Assembly: GCF_029910095.1 (NCBI RefSeq) | Contig: NZ_CP094526.1 | Location: forward strand, 1,240,001-1,304,000 | DNA length: 64,000 bases | From: Bradyrhizobium sp. ISRA464 | GTDB lineage: Bacteria; Pseudomonadota; Alphaproteobacteria; Rhizobiales; Xanthobacteraceae | Direction of reading: 5' to 3' | Shown: in pieces, positions 17,334-43,680 of the stretch | Layout: each line of letters starts with the position of its first letter | Position numbering within the stretch: position 1 is the first letter of the stretch | Notes under the pieces: generated by a model | Databases searched by the model: none | The model's input: only the letters and a program-made list of their open reading frames with translations | What the model was told of the DNA's origin: nothing | Position numbers and translations under genes: made by a program

Positions 17334-19133
17334 TTAATTTCCCGTCATGCTCATTAACAGCCGTTCAAGCGTCTCCAGCCGGTCGGCCTCGCCAGGCTTC
17401 TTGTCCCAGCGCAGGCGATTGATGCGCGGAAAGCGCATCGCGACGCCGGATTTGTGACGCGGCGAGCGCTGCAATCCCTCGAAGGCGACTTCCAGCACCA
17501 GGCCCTGGTCGGGCTCGTGCACGACATGACGCACAGGGCCGAATTTCTCCGTCGTGTTGCGGCGGACGAAGCGGTCGATCTGCAGCAGCTCCTCGTCGGT
17601 GAAGCCGAAATAGGCCTTCCCGACCGGCACGAGCTCGTTGCCATCAGTCCAGACGCCGAACGTGTAGTCGGAATAATAGGACGAGCGCTTGCCGTGGCCG
17701 CGTTGCGCATACATCAGCACGGCGTCGATGATGTGCGGATCGCGCTTCCACTTCCACCACGGTCCCTTCGGCCGCCCGGGCAGATAAGGTGCATCGCGCC
17801 GCTTCAGCATCACGCCTTCGACCGCGTCGGCATCATCGCCCGCGCCGGCGCTGCGCGGATCGGCTCGCGCCGCTGCGAGCTCCGTCCAGCTTGCGAAGGG
17901 AATCGTCGGCGACAGGTCGATGCGCGGATCGTTCAGCTTCGCGATGAAGCTCTCGAGATGCGCGCGGCGCTCGACGAAAGGCAGCTCGCGCAGATCGTTC
18001 TCGTCGTCGCCGAGCAGATCGTAGGCGCGCAAATGGATCGGGAATTCCTTGATGAGTTTTGGCGAGACCACTTTGCGGTTGAGCCGCTGCTGCAGCACGT
18101 TGAAGGTCCGCACACGCCCGTCGCGCAGCACCAGCAGTTCGCCGTCGATCGCGCCGGGCAGATGCAGCGACGGTACGAGGTCCGGGAAGCCGCCGGTAAT
18201 GTCCTCGCCGGTGCGCGAATAGAGCCGCGCCTGGACGTGGCCGCGGTCGTCGCGGCCGGAGACCGCCTGCACACGGATGCCATCCCACTTCCATTCCGCG
18301 CTGAAATCCGCGGCGTCGAGATTGGCGAAATCCGCATCCTCGATCGCATGCGCCAGCATCACCGGGCGGAATGGCGCAGGATCGCGATTGATCGGCTTGT
18401 CGCCGCGGCCTTCCAGCCAGGCGAACAGGTCGAGATAGGGCGGCGACAGACCCGGCCACATCAGCTCGATCTCGTGCGGGTCCTTATTCCCGAGCGCGGC
18501 CGCCGCGGTCTTCGCCAGCCGTGCCGAGATCCCGATCCGCATCGCGCCGGTGACGAGCTTTAATAGCGCCCAGCGCCCGGTTTCATCGAGCTCATCCAGC
18601 CAGCGCGCGAGCTGCGCGGGCAGTTCGGTTTTGCCCAGCGTGCGCAGCGTGGTGACGACTTCGGTCAGTGTCGGAGGAGGCGGGTTGTTGTGGAGGGAGC
18701 TGTGTAACGGATTTTCTTCACCTCTCCCGCTTGCGGGGGAGGTCGGATCGTTCGGCGGCGCGTAAGCGCGGTCGAGCGATCCGGGTGGGGGCTCTCTCCG
18801 CTTGTCCATTGCGTGGAGAGACCCCCACCCCGGCCCTCCCCCATGAGCGGGAGAGGGGGAACTCTTCGGCCACATCAGCGCGACCGTCTCGGAGAGATCG
18901 CCGACGTAATCGTAGGAGTATCCGAACAGCACGGGATCGGCGCGCTCCGTGATCAGGTCGCGGATCAATCCCGGCTTGGCGTGCTTGAACGACAGCGCGC
19001 CGGTCAGCGCCGCCAGCGCGTAGCCGCGGTCGGGATCCTCTGTCTCCTGAAAATAAGCGACCAGCAGCTTGATCTTGTTGTTGCGGCCGGGCTCGTAGGC
19101 GAGGCGGTCGAGCAATTGAGCGAAGCGGTTCAT
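17334..19133 (-). CDS. ATP-dependent DNA ligase of the ligase-associated repair set
   Basis: A 599-aa ATP-dependent DNA ligase. The adenylated lysine is K282 in EWKWDGIRVQ (motif I), followed by RLYSRTGEDIT (motif Ia/III region), DGELLVLRDG, EGVMLKR, and the C-terminal OB-fold. The N-terminal DNA-binding domain is interrupted between ALMWP (residue 89) and the PPPPTLTEVV segment by about 50 residues encoded by repeat R1 at 18717-18866, in frame. Without it the protein would be about 549 aa, nearer the family length. The ATG at 19133 overlaps the exonuclease stop in ATGA. Partners are the adjacent exonuclease, and the Lhr-type helicase and PdeM at 22.9-26.6 kb. Confidence 0.92.
   Translation of the reverse strand: MNRFAQLLDRLAYEPGRNNKIKLLVAYFQETEDPDRGYALAALTGALSFKHAKPGLIRDLITERADPVLFGYSYDYVGDLSETVALMWPKSSPSPAHGGGPGWGSLHAMDKRREPPPGSLDRAYAPPNDPTSPASGRGEENPLHSSLHNNPPPPTLTEVVTTLRTLGKTELPAQLARWLDELDETGRWALLKLVTGAMRIGISARLAKTAAAALGNKDPHEIELMWPGLSPPYLDLFAWLEGRGDKPINRDPAPFRPVMLAHAIEDADFANLDAADFSAEWKWDGIRVQAVSGRDDRGHVQARLYSRTGEDITGGFPDLVPSLHLPGAIDGELLVLRDGRVRTFNVLQQRLNRKVVSPKLIKEFPIHLRAYDLLGDDENDLRELPFVERRAHLESFIAKLNDPRIDLSPTIPFASWTELAAARADPRSAGAGDDADAVEGVMLKRRDAPYLPGRPKGPWWKWKRDPHIIDAVLMYAQRGHGKRSSYYSDYTFGVWTDGNELVPVGKAYFGFTDEELLQIDRFVRRNTTEKFGPVRHVVHEPDQGLVLEVAFEGLQRSPRHKSGVAMRFPRINRLRWDKKPGEADRLETLERLLMSMTGN
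18717..18866. repeat. Palindromic element R1 inserted in frame in the DNA ligase gene
   Basis: 150 bp, exactly 50 codons. The left end CTCTCCCGCTTGCGGGGGAG and the right end CTCCCCCATGAGCGGGAGAG are inverted relatives. The inner stem pairs GGGTGGGGGCTCTCTCC with GGAGAGACCCCCACCC. The gene reads the element from the reverse side as ...SPSPAHGGGPGWGSLHAM... to ...SPASGRGEE. The low-complexity Pro/Gly/Ser peptide has no counterpart expected in ligases. Confidence 0.85.
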
Positions 19134-22723: not shown

Positions 22724-22864
22724 CAACCTCGCCCCGCTTGCGGGGAGAGGTCGGATCGCATCAGGAGATGCGATCCGGGTGAGGGGGTACAGGTCTCACC
22801 ACGCTGAGCGCTCGCCGAAGCAGCCCCTCACCCCGACCCTCTCCCCGTAAGAACGGGGAGAGGG
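22724..22864. repeat. Palindromic element R1, intergenic copy upstream of the helicase
   Basis: Left end CCCCGCTTGCGGGG, right end CTCTCCCCGTAAGAACGGGG, with an inner inverted repeat GGATCGCATC..GATGCGATCC and a GGGTGAGGGGG module. It lies only about 80 bp before the helicase start, and the helicase gene carries another copy of the same family. Confidence 0.75.
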
Positions 22865-22942: not shown

Positions 22943-25726
22943 TTGGGCGTGTCGACGCTCGATCTCTTCACCGTCACGCCGTCGGAAACGGCCCACCCGC
23001 TGCCGCGCCGGTTTCGCGACTGGTTCACTTCTCGTGGCTGGTCGCCGCGCGAGCATCAGCTTGCGCTACTAGCCAGGGCGCGCGAGCAGCGCTCGGCGCT
23101 GCTGATTGCGCCGACCGGCGCCGGCAAGACGCTGGCGGGATTCTTGCCGACATTGGTGGAGTTGAGCGGAGAAGAATCTGACCTCGGTGTTCCTGCTCAC
23201 CTCCCCCTGAAAGGGGGAGGTCGGCGCGTATCGGCGCGCGGCAGCGCGGCCGAGCGCGACGGGTGGGGGTCAGCCGCAGGCACGGAGCAAGCGGCTGACC
23301 CCCACCCCAACCCTCCCCCTTTCAGGGGGAGGGAGCCTGATGATCTCGCAAGTGGAGAAGAAGCTGAATCGGCGAAATCGCGCCCAACGCTCATCTCCAC
23401 TGGCCGCTCGGTCCGTCGCACCGGCGGGCTGCACACGCTCTACATCTCGCCGCTGAAGGCACTGGCCGTCGACATCGCGCGCAACCTGGAAACGCCGGTT
23501 GCCGAGATGGGGTTGCCGATCAGGATCGAGACCCGCACCGGTGACACGCCGGTGTCGCGGCGGCAGCGGCAGCGGCGCTATCCGCCGGATATCCTGCTCA
23601 CCACGCCCGAGCAGCTGGCGCTGCTGCTAGCGTCCGATGATGCGCCCTATCTGTTCGCCTCGCTGAAGCGCGTCGTGCTCGACGAGCTGCATGCGCTGGT
23701 CACTTCGAAGCGCGGCGATCTGCTCTCGCTCGGGCTCGCACGGCTCTGGAAAATCGCCCCGCAGGTGCGCGCCATCGGGCTCTCGGCGACGGTCGCCGAG
23801 CCTGAGCAGCTCGCACGCTTCCTGGTGCCGCAGCCGGGCAGTGCGAGCGTATCCGCCGACGTCGTCACCGCCGGCGGCGCGGCGCCGCCGATCGTCGAGA
23901 TGCTCGACACCAGAGAACGGCTGCCGTGGTCCGGCCACAGTGCACGTCATGCGCTGCCCGAGGTGTACGAGCTGATCAAGCGCAACAAGACCACACTGGT
24001 GTTCGTCAACACGCGCAGCCAGGCCGAGATGCTGTTCCAGGATCTCTGGCGCATGAACGACGATGGGCTTGCGATCGCGCTGCATCACGGCTCGCTCGAC
24101 GTCGCGCAGCGCCGCAAGGTCGAGGACGCGATGGCTGCCGGCCGCCTGCGCGGCGTGGTCTGCACCTCCTCGCTCGACCTCGGCGTCGACTGGGGCGACG
24201 TCGACCTCGTCATCAACATCGGCGCGCCGAAGGGCTCGTCGCGGCTGATGCAGCGGATCGGCCGCGCCAATCACCGCTTCGACGAGGCTTCGCGTGCCGT
24301 GCTGGTGCCGGCCAATCGCTTCGAGGTGCTGGAATGTTCCGTCGCGATCGACGCGATCGCCGAGAATGCGCAGGACACGCCACCGCTGCGCTCCGGCGCG
24401 CTCGACGTGCTGGCCCAGCACGTGCTCGGCTGCGCCTGCGGCGAGCCGTTCCTGTCGGATGAACTTTATGCCGAGGTGTTGACGGCAGCGCCGTATGCCA
24501 ATCTCGCGCGCGCGGATTTCGACGACGTCGTCGAGTTCGTCGCGACCGGTGGCTACGCACTGAAGACCTATGAGCGCTTCGCCCGCATCAAGCAGGACAA
24601 GCAGGGCCGCTGGCGCGTCGCCAATCCCAAGGTGCGGCAGAGCTATCGCCTCAACGTCGGCACCATCGTCGAAGAGACTATGCTGAAGGTGCGGCTGGTG
24701 CGCTCGCGCGCCGGCGGCCAAGGAAAGAGCAAAGGATCGACCGGCGCGATCGCGCGCGGCGGCCGCCTGTTGGGGCAGATCGAGGAGGTTTTCATCGAAG
24801 GCCTCGTGGTCGGCGACACCTTTGTGTTCGGCGGCGAGGTGGTGCGCTACGAGGCCCTGGTCGAGGACCAGGTCTATGTCTCGCGCGCCAATGACAGGGA
24901 TGCCAAGGTGCCGTCCTACATGGGCGGCAAGTTCCCGCTCTCGACCTATCTTGCCGAGCGCGTCCGCAAATTGCTCGACAACAGCCGCGCCTGGAAGGCG
25001 CTGCCGGATCAGGTCCATGACTGGCTGTCGTTGCAGCGGAAGTTCTCGCGCGTGCCGGCGGTGCGCGAGCTCCTGGTCGAAACCTTCCCGCGCGGCGGCA
25101 GCCACTATCTGGTCTGCTATCCCTTCGAGGGCCGGCTCGCCCACCAGACGCTCGGCATGCTCCTGACACGCCGGCTGGAGCGCGCCCGTGCCCGTCCGCT
25201 CGGCTTCGTTGCCAATGAATATGCGCTCGCGGTGTGGGGCGTCGGCGATCTCTCCTTCATGATCAGGCAGGGCAAGCTCGATCTCAACGCGTTGTTCCAT
25301 CCGGATATGCTCGGCGACGACCTCGAGGCCTGGCTGGAAGAATCCGCGCTGATGAAGCGTACCTTCCGCAACTGCGCCATCATCTCCGGCCTGATCGCGC
25401 GCCGCTTCACCGATGAGGAGAAGTCACGCCGCCAGGTGCTGTTCTCGACCGATTTGATCTATGATGTGCTGCGCAAGCACCAGGCCGACCACGTGCTGCT
25501 GCGTGCCGCGCGCGCCGATGCTGCCACCGGACTGCTCGATCTCCGCCGTCTCGGCGACATGCTCTCGCGCATTCACGGCCGGATCACCCACAAGGATCTC
25601 GACCACGTTTCCCCGCTTGCCGTTCCTGCGCTGCTGGAAATCGGCCGCGAGTCAGTTTATGGCGAAGCATCCGACGAGCTCCTGGCCGAAGCGGCCGAGG
25701 AACTGGTGCGGGAGGCGATGACATAA
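22943..25726 (+). CDS. Ligase-associated Lhr-type DEXH-box DNA helicase
   Basis: A 927-aa superfamily 2 helicase matching the Lhr-Core type. Motif I is APTGAGKTLAG (about 57-67), motif II DELH (247-250), motif III GLSATVAEP, motif V TSSLDLGVDWG and motif VI QRIGRANHR, followed by the winged-helix and Lhr C-terminal domain (GTIVEETMLKVRL, GRLLGQIEEVFIEGL). Between motif I and motif Ia (LYISPLKAL, about 166-174) lies an extra stretch of about 80 residues, of which 85-131 are repeat R1. The start is TTG 22943 or GTG 22949; neither has a clear ribosome site, and a stop lies at 22928. PdeM follows. Confidence 0.92.
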   Translation: MGVSTLDLFTVTPSETAHPLPRRFRDWFTSRGWSPREHQLALLARAREQRSALLIAPTGAGKTLAGFLPTLVELSGEESDLGVPAHLPLKGGGRRVSARGSAAERDGWGSAAGTEQAADPHPNPPPFRGREPDDLASGEEAESAKSRPTLISTGRSVRRTGGLHTLYISPLKALAVDIARNLETPVAEMGLPIRIETRTGDTPVSRRQRQRRYPPDILLTTPEQLALLLASDDAPYLFASLKRVVLDELHALVTSKRGDLLSLGLARLWKIAPQVRAIGLSATVAEPEQLARFLVPQPGSASVSADVVTAGGAAPPIVEMLDTRERLPWSGHSARHALPEVYELIKRNKTTLVFVNTRSQAEMLFQDLWRMNDDGLAIALHHGSLDVAQRRKVEDAMAAGRLRGVVCTSSLDLGVDWGDVDLVINIGAPKGSSRLMQRIGRANHRFDEASRAVLVPANRFEVLECSVAIDAIAENAQDTPPLRSGALDVLAQHVLGCACGEPFLSDELYAEVLTAAPYANLARADFDDVVEFVATGGYALKTYERFARIKQDKQGRWRVANPKVRQSYRLNVGTIVEETMLKVRLVRSRAGGQGKSKGSTGAIARGGRLLGQIEEVFIEGLVVGDTFVFGGEVVRYEALVEDQVYVSRANDRDAKVPSYMGGKFPLSTYLAERVRKLLDNSRAWKALPDQVHDWLSLQRKFSRVPAVRELLVETFPRGGSHYLVCYPFEGRLAHQTLGMLLTRRLERARARPLGFVANEYALAVWGVGDLSFMIRQGKLDLNALFHPDMLGDDLEAWLEESALMKRTFRNCAIISGLIARRFTDEEKSRRQVLFSTDLIYDVLRKHQADHVLLRAARADAATGLLDLRRLGDMLSRIHGRITHKDLDHVSPLAVPALLEIGRESVYGEASDELLAEAAEELVREAMT
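23195..23337. repeat. Palindromic element R1 inserted in frame in the helicase gene
   Basis: The ends are hairpins CTCCCCCTGAAAGGGGGAG (23201-23219) and its exact inverse (23313-23331). The centre is a perfect 17-bp stem, GGGTGGGGGTCAGCCGC (23261-23277) with its complement at 23291-23307. It encodes a Gly/Pro/Arg-rich peptide (HLPLKGGGRR ... HPNPPPFRGREP). Orientation relative to the gene is opposite to that in the ligase. Confidence 0.87.
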
Positions 25727-43418: not shown

Positions 43419-43547
43419 CTCACCTCCCCTTGAAAAGGGGAGGTCGCTTTGCTCGCGAGAGCAAAGCGGGTGGGGATCTTCTCTCCACATCCGCCGGTGC
43501 CTGTGGCTGGACCCCCATCCCGACCTTCCCCCTTTCAGGGGGAAGGA
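43419..43547. repeat. Palindromic element R1, intergenic copy after the beta-oxidation genes
   Basis: Left hairpin CTCCCCTTGAAAAGGGGAG, then an inner inverted repeat GCTTTGCTC..GAGCAAAGC with GGGTGGGG, and the right end CTTCCCCCTTTCAGGGGGAAG. It is close to the helicase copy in its end hairpins (CCCCTTGAAAAGGGG vs CCCCCTGAAAGGGGG). Confidence 0.78.
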
Positions 43548-43557
43548 GAAGGGCTTC

Positions 43558-43680
43558 GTAGCCCGGATGGAGCGGAGCGAAATCCGGGACCGGATTATCC
43601 GCGGATGGGCTTGCCCCGGATTGGGCGGAGCCCGCCATTGGGCGCGCATTCGCGCGACCCGTTGGCTCCATCCGGGCTAG
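43558..43680. repeat. Repeat R3, long copy
   Basis: Starts GTAGCCCGGATGGAGCGGAG and ends GTTGGCTCCATCCGGGCTA, so the outer ends are inverted. The inner module GGCGCGCATTCGCGCGACC matches copies at 9714 and 10934. It fills the gap between the FadB/FadJ-type gene and the GST terminator. Confidence 0.78.

Follow-up and report, generated by a model that had tools for sequence, protein, structure and literature searches.

According to the literature, palindromic repeats occur inside the protein genes of several bacteria. The Rickettsia palindromic elements (RPE) are repeats of 105–146 bp with long stem-loops that lie in frame in genes for conserved proteins, and one host enzyme, Gmk, remains active (PMC2229807, on Ogata et al. 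2000). Three recombination genes, addA, addB and priA, have been described with in-frame inserts that resemble Wolbachia palindromic elements (WPE; PMC4224334). The GTAG/CGTC classes of repetitive extragenic palindromes (REP) were found inside genes, many of them for repair, including uvrA, uvrB, recB and, in Opitutus terrae, a DNA ligase and RNA helicases; in two Xanthomonas, REPs sit at roughly the same place in recB (Di Nocera et al. 2013, PMC3733652). In this work, a stretch of 64,000 nucleotides from Bradyrhizobium sp. ISRA464 (contig NZ_CP094526.1, positions 1,240,001 to 1,304,000; hereafter, the window) was analysed, in which a palindromic element, designated R1, lies in frame in the gene for an Lhr-type helicase. 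Bioinformatics analysis revealed that R1 and other palindromes recur at one and the same loop of this helicase in related genomes, at one loop of the ATP-dependent DNA ligase encoded nearby, and in the N-terminal extension of UvrB. The genome studied is a single contig of 8,462,457 bases, whose closest named relatives are Bradyrhizobium.

The R1 copy in the helicase gene is 136 bp long (23198..23333, plus strand) and lies in the orientation A-B-C-A', in frame with the helicase. It matches positions 2-123 of the element profile (nhmmer E-value, 2.2e-13), being itself one of the seeds of the profile that scores it. Four hairpin modules constitute R1: A (CACCTCCCC...GGGGAGGTCG), a variable B, C (GGGTGGGGG...CCCCCACCC) and A' (CCCTCCCCC...GGGGGAGGG). 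In the helicase copy, hairpins A (23200..23220) and A' (23312..23332), both given on the plus strand, also serve as the two outer inverted arms, which are perfect over 21 nt, and hairpin C (23261..23307, plus strand; GGGTGGGGGTCAGCCGC ... GCGGCTGACCCCCACCC) has perfect 17-nt arms at 23261-23277 and 23291-23307. Folded as single-stranded DNA, the copy has an energy of -74.4 kcal/mol, compared with -36.6 ± 3.1 for 200 shuffles (z -12.1). The host gene (22943..25726, plus strand) belongs to the ligase-associated DEXH box helicases (TIGR04121; 1095.6 bits vs. an NCBIfam cut-off of 850) and contains the Pfam domains DEAD, Helicase_C, WH_Lhr and DEAD_assoc. The arms, the folding energy and the TIGR04121 score all agree with the first-pass annotation, which had recognised a palindromic element inside an Lhr-type helicase gene, and its placement between motif I (GAGKT, residues 59-63) and motif Ia was confirmed as well. 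A second R1 copy lies in the ligase gene (18719..18859, plus strand), in frame and antisense to the reading of the gene (ligase loop match on the minus strand; E-value, 5.9e-24). The two genes do read the element in opposite directions, as had been noted, the helicase as A-B-C-A' and the ligase in reverse. Rfam gave three matches to the element, every one far below the gathering score. Selection for the hairpin structure as such was considered, but the signal is too weak to claim it: in the element alignment, 93.7% of the paired cells are kept, both sides have changed in 2 of the 33 pairs, and the covariation score was matched by 5 of 500 shuffles.

The helicase loop was compared in 80 named orthologues and the window (81 in total), 77 of which have a readable loop; the other four end at contig borders (two) or carry masked stretches (two). 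The loops range from 18 to 107 aa, and none contains a stop. Profile matches were found in 27 of the 77 (19 sense, 8 antisense); the 81 downstream parts (184 kb) and the 77 upstream pieces of the gene gave none. The comparison of orthologues which the first-pass annotation had called for thus locates the palindromes in the loop, with type and orientation varying from genome to genome. Sorted by eye, the inserts comprise 13 of type R1, four each of types b and c, five of type d and two of type e. Among the 50 loops that lack a match, 43 are 18-37 aa long and seven are 43-86 aa long, these seven including one type-c element that goes unscored and some others that are likely scars. Most of the 50 end in a similar STGRxVxR stretch, and the Lhr of M. 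smegmatis has about 8 aa at this position, so that most of residues 132-161 in the window's helicase look native. The variable loop (residues 75-161, 87 aa; 23165..23425, plus strand; predicted to be disordered) therefore consists of the element and native loop, and the earlier estimate of an insert of about 80 residues was too high.

Close relatives differ at this site. The window carries R1, and its sister L012 has a short loop with a remnant, which we read as the scar of a subtype-b element; L016 carries R1, L017 type b and L021 nothing. The Tardiphaga-like L054, L055 and L058 hold three different inserts, and L088 holds none. When the element types were mapped on a tree of 80 rows from which the loop had been removed (76 of the rows typed), a minimum of 24 changes of type and 21 of presence or absence was required; this is a quick tree in which recombination is possible, scars were scored as absence, and L061 was left out as too short. 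Outside the genus, the 27 loops of the order that were compared (out of 30 loci, from 81 genomes searched) are short and, judged by eye, contain no such peptide. Elements out of frame were seen in one Lhr (G027, L267) and in one ligase (L204, from genome G006); either real inactivation or an assembly error in such hairpins is possible in both. Two further observations concern individual sequences: P0070 (1019 aa) is an Lhr with two type-c inserts in tandem in one loop, and L078, titled Frankia sp. RB7, has an Lhr of the Bradyrhizobium type that falls within the tree of that genus, and is probably mislabelled or contaminated.

For the ligase, 60 Bradyrhizobium genomes were analysed (one lacking an Lhr and one a ligase orthologue), which gave 59 loci and 56 readable loops, the remaining three being two cut pieces and one out of frame. 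The loop is 13-15 aa long in 26 of the 56 and 35-119 aa long in the other 30. Profile matches occur in 26 of the 56, 13 in each orientation, and none occurs in the rest of the 56 genes as cut (97 kb). In the same genomes, at least 17 of 59 Lhr loops are matched, two clear type-c loops scoring none. Among the 55 genomes in which both loops could be compared, 12 are occupied in both genes, 3 in Lhr only, 14 in the ligase only and 26 in neither (Fisher p 0.005, uncorrected for kinship). A third site is the N-terminal extension of UvrB (L350-L357, L366 and L374; residues 96-144 in P0129), where 8 of 30 loops have profile matches; the set comprises 31 loci, one without the loop, and is not a random draw, since 29 of the 30 were the top matches of a UvrB that carries the element. 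Type c is present in UvrB in all five genomes where it was found.

The constraint on the element was estimated from 11 R1-bearing Lhr genes (L014 and L061 not included). The dN/dS ratio is 0.59 in the element (bootstrap 0.38-0.88), compared with 0.10 in the core of the gene, and the highest value in any 45-codon window of the core is 0.29; constraint on the element is relaxed. A structure predicted from 37 sequences (mean pLDDT 76.3; pTM 0.75) has its best fold match in the PDB in M. smegmatis Lhr (5v9x; TM score 0.80 by target). In this model, residues 79-158 fall under pLDDT 50, between a helix (62-79) and a strand (165-168), and the loop segment is accordingly predicted to be disordered. 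An AlphaFold model from 28 close relatives (mean pLDDT 41.8) was set aside.

The first-pass annotation had further suggested that an element open in both senses is likely selected for that, or has been filtered by selection. Reading frames were counted in 39 full-length copies, 36 from the genome sample described below and three near matches of the helicase copy. Stop-free frames number 127 of 234, compared with 120.7 ± 7.0 in random pieces of the same genome, 114.5 ± 6.7 in dinucleotide shuffles (127 reached by 21 of 500) and 90.2 ± 6.9 in mononucleotide shuffles (reached by none of 500). An open frame on each strand is found in 30 of the 39 copies; the dinucleotide shuffles give 30.0 ± 2.4 and the mononucleotide shuffles 24.3 ± 2.8, 16 of 500 reaching 30. 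No frame is favoured (22, 19, 24, 24, 19 and 19 of 39 open). With short flanks, the helicase copy is open in one of six frames, the one in use (two of six when trimmed to the model), and the ligase copy is open in four (five when trimmed). The phrase "open in both senses" thus does not hold for the helicase copy. Set against shuffles of the same base composition, the comparison that the earlier annotation had proposed as its refutation, the copies exceed 500 of 500, so that the refutation fails by the letter, while the ordinary DNA of the genome is equally open. Because a near-palindrome reads alike from both sides, openness on two strands is not independent evidence, and because R1 is about as readable as the other DNA of this genome, two genic copies that are open in opposite directions require no selection on the element. 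Selection to stay open both ways is therefore not supported. The peptides of the open frames average 41% Gly, Pro and Arg (39-43% across the six frames), compared with 30% in random open frames and 21% in the helicase core.

To estimate abundance, 1,484,000 bases were sampled from the own genome (1.2 Mb and 220 kb, together with the window) and searched at E ≤ 1e-6 with a profile built from copies of this genome, both genic ones included. The search returned 51 matches, two of which are pieces of one element; scaled up, this would correspond to about 290 copies per genome, and a strict C-hairpin pattern occurs at 90 places in the whole genome. Based on a coding test of the flanks and inspection of the spanning ORFs, 2 of the 51 matches lie within recognised genes, those of the ligase and the helicase. 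The test, which requires a coding signal on both flanks, is crude and may overlook a copy that lies close to the end of a gene or within a short one; it missed the helicase copy, whose left flank extends beyond the gene start. It flagged three copies, in the ligase and in ORFs at 495027 and 627148. These two ORFs, and those over 382217 and 130342, were judged by eye to be spurious, and an ORF spanning 139339 and 139481 continues into a DUF559 gene. The near-absence of copies from genes supports the second half of the earlier suggestion, namely, filtering by selection, as does the lack of stops in the 77 Lhr and 56 ligase loops, which is partly by construction, since loops of both genes were found through intact frames.

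The genic copies are concentrated in repair proteins. Among 5.8 billion proteins, those with 0.55-1.75 times the length of the query were searched; the R1 peptide of Lhr matched 35 proteins, every one an Lhr, and the ligase insert peptide matched 34, all of them ligases and the window's own included. The type-c insert peptide of Lhr L056 matched 274 proteins; among the 120 listed, 50 are Lhr, 69 are ligases and one is UvrB. At the DNA level, the same peptide gave 79 rows in 5 of the 60 genomes, or 66 distinct places after merging. The 61 places examined on both strands include three in Lhr, two in the ligase, five in UvrB and three in ORFs that have no Pfam match; assigned by position, the other five lie in Lhr (one), in the ligase (three) and just upstream of an Lhr (one). 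In total, 14 of the 66 are located in one of these three genes (Lhr, ligase, UvrB), and the remainder lie in no other gene that could be recognised. Among ten type-c ORFs in the query frame, nine have no Pfam match; the tenth matches PhyH, but there the element occupies the N-terminal margin and not the domain itself. An initial impression that type c is confined to Lhr and ligase was ruled out by the UvrB copies found on the both-strand check. Part of the concentration is explained by shared descent.

Palindromes of this kind are also associated with genes for DUF559 proteins, which we take to belong with the Vsr-like nucleases. One R1 element of the own genome has its hairpin C divided in two by a DUF559 ORF (about 139.3-140.0 kb; about 19340-20000 in L095; located by eye). 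The DUF559 set examined comprises the two own copies and the 30 best-scoring of the genus, which are not a random draw. A profile match within 350 nt of the gene was found at 30 of the 32 loci, the exceptions being the second own copy (L405) and L430, compared with 39 of 1000 windows drawn at random from the own genome; at 21 of the 32 loci, the gene is spanned by an exact inverted repeat of at least 14 nt, compared with 2 of 1000 such windows. A DGxxH-type motif is present at 31 of the 32. The DUF559 motif stands beside three type-c places (L395, L400 and L402), and in a fourth type-c genome, the arms of a DUF559 gene (L414) resemble type c. The DUF559 genes are thus candidates for encoding the mobiliser of the palindromes. 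A wider proposal, tentative and with the odds somewhat against it, is that the palindromes are non-autonomous offspring of a DUF559 (Vsr-like) mobile class whose nuclease is encoded inside hairpin C, and that they gain lasting genic footholds only in repair proteins (Lhr, ligase and UvrB), either because these enzymes are involved in processing the hairpins of the element or because a change in repair is now and then advantageous.

Taken together, the data are best read as a tolerated and filtered R1 copy at a recurrent loop site, with the same in the ligase and UvrB; we give this reading a probability of about 0.75. R1 is a GC-rich, four-hairpin, putatively mobile repeat resembling miniature inverted-repeat transposable elements (MITE), a copy of which entered, or was exchanged into, the helicase loop between motif I and motif Ia. 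It would persist there because about half of the frames in such DNA are stop-free by composition, because every frame encodes a disorder-promoting peptide rich in Gly, Pro and Arg, because the helicase loop tolerates such peptides, and because copies that shift the frame or bring stops are mostly purged. Subfamilies in both orientations replace one another at the site, shrink by in-frame deletion and leave scars, and one ligase loop and one N-terminal stretch of UvrB behave likewise. The presence of the element, its frames, its recurrence and turnover and the relaxed constraint are seen in the data, whereas tolerance as the cause, the mobility of the element and the mobiliser role of the DUF559 genes are inferred. 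Several observations weigh against this account. Silent divergence is lower in the element than in the core (pS 0.187 vs. 0.347), third positions are lower in 53 of 55 pairs, and element divergence hardly tracks that of the core (r 0.27), so that drift by itself does not describe the element, on which gene conversion, renewed insertion or constraint at the DNA level may act. The term "insertion" is based on the comparison of empty with filled relatives. Openness does exceed that of mononucleotide shuffles clearly, and that of dinucleotide shuffles mildly. Plain tolerance also leaves the prevalence of repair proteins unexplained, as loose linkers occur in many proteins.

The poor tracking of gene divergence is what would be expected if a single old insertion had been kept and later replaced by other copies, by way of ectopic recombination or allele exchange at the A/A' hairpins that they have in common, with no repeated entry de novo. 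Such a history, which we consider possible though not the probable one, would also fit the 18-bp shorter B form common to L016, L024 and L030 despite their distant hosts, as well as the association of Lhr with ligase occupancy; it accords poorly with related lineages that carry opposite orientations and dissimilar element types, and with the ligase, in which 26 of 56 relatives show clean absence at sites of 13-15 aa while the window's gene holds a full-length R1. The signature of the Lhr copy's C hairpin (at most two mismatches) was found in 4 of the 60 genomes; three of these occurrences lie in Lhr and the fourth elsewhere, with stops in that frame, so that common descent and fresh insertion of this copy are both possible. 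It is improbable that the palindromes are kept because they alter repair activity or expression, as in the mutator idea that Di Nocera et al. (2013) put forward. The distribution of type c over Lhr, ligase and UvrB, among both the proteins listed and the 66 places, would speak for such a role, but part of it is shared descent; the contrast in dN/dS between element and core, the lack of conservation in content, length and orientation, and the 50 of 77 Lhr loops without a match argue against it. Least credible of all is a protein-coding palindrome that has itself been selected stop-free to invade genes: the slight excess of open frames over dinucleotide shuffles and the large one over mononucleotide shuffles are offset by the equal openness of random genomic pieces, by the lack of a favoured frame or a two-strand excess, and by the 49 of 51 sampled matches that lie outside genes recognised as hosts.

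The host gene belongs to a cluster in which all four members of the ligase-associated DNA damage response set (LADR; TIGR04120-TIGR04123) are present in the window, each over its cut-off. Apart from the helicase, these are the ATP-dependent DNA ligase (TIGR04120; 17334..19235, minus strand; 796.8 bits vs. a cut-off of 400), the ligase-associated exonuclease (TIGR04122; 19130..20233, minus strand) and the ligase-associated endonuclease PdeM (TIGR04123; 25862..26572, plus strand). The element profile finds no match in the exonuclease gene of the window, none in its PdeM and none among 81 PdeM loci, 79 of them with a near-complete PdeM. A related palindromic element of the GGGTGAGGGG subtype (22733..22856, plus strand; profile match) occupies the gap immediately upstream of the helicase gene, whose expression it could influence. 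A further element, of the CTGAAAG type (43425..43545, plus strand), is followed by a GTAGCCCGGATGGAGCGGAGCGA stretch (43425-43580 for both), which may resemble a GTAG REP.

In-frame palindromes in Rickettsia and Wolbachia proteins and REPs in repair genes are already known from the papers cited; among the titles and abstract beginnings searched, no report of palindromes in Bradyrhizobium repair genes was found. What we add is the element family, the successive replacement of elements at a single site in each of two genes that belong to one cluster, and what may be a new link, that with DUF559 genes. The series, with empty, filled, shrunken, scarred and out-of-frame states, documents how a palindrome colonises a translated loop in free-living bacteria, many species of which have been sequenced, and makes an old question testable, namely, why palindromic repeats occur in repair genes; the link with DUF559 points to a concrete candidate for their mover.

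Compared with the LADR-type operon described in PMC10140301, the present cluster has palindromic inserts in two of its four genes. Like RPE, R1 is a many-copy palindrome of matching size (136 bp; 51 matches in 1.484 Mb) that lies in frame in conserved genes. It is set apart from RPE by its host, which is Bradyrhizobium rather than Rickettsia, by the location of 2 of the 51 sampled matches in host genes, both of them repair genes, and by subfamilies that replace one another at one site. The likeness to WPE is one of description; other genes are affected here, and the host of WPE is an endosymbiont. The body of the present elements comprises four hairpins and 110-150 bp and is accompanied by DUF559 genes, whereas GTAG REPs accompany REP-associated tyrosine transposases (RAYT). 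Neither the GTAG nor the CGTC tag occurs in 23198-23333, and CCTC, which like TGTC is a variant of the CGTC REP tag, is found at both A hairpins. The stem of a CGTC REP is described as 8-9 bp long and almost always starting with A/T pairs (PMC3733652), whereas the A and A' stems of R1, judged by eye, start with C-G. With MITEs, R1 shares its short length, its many copies and its inverted repeats.

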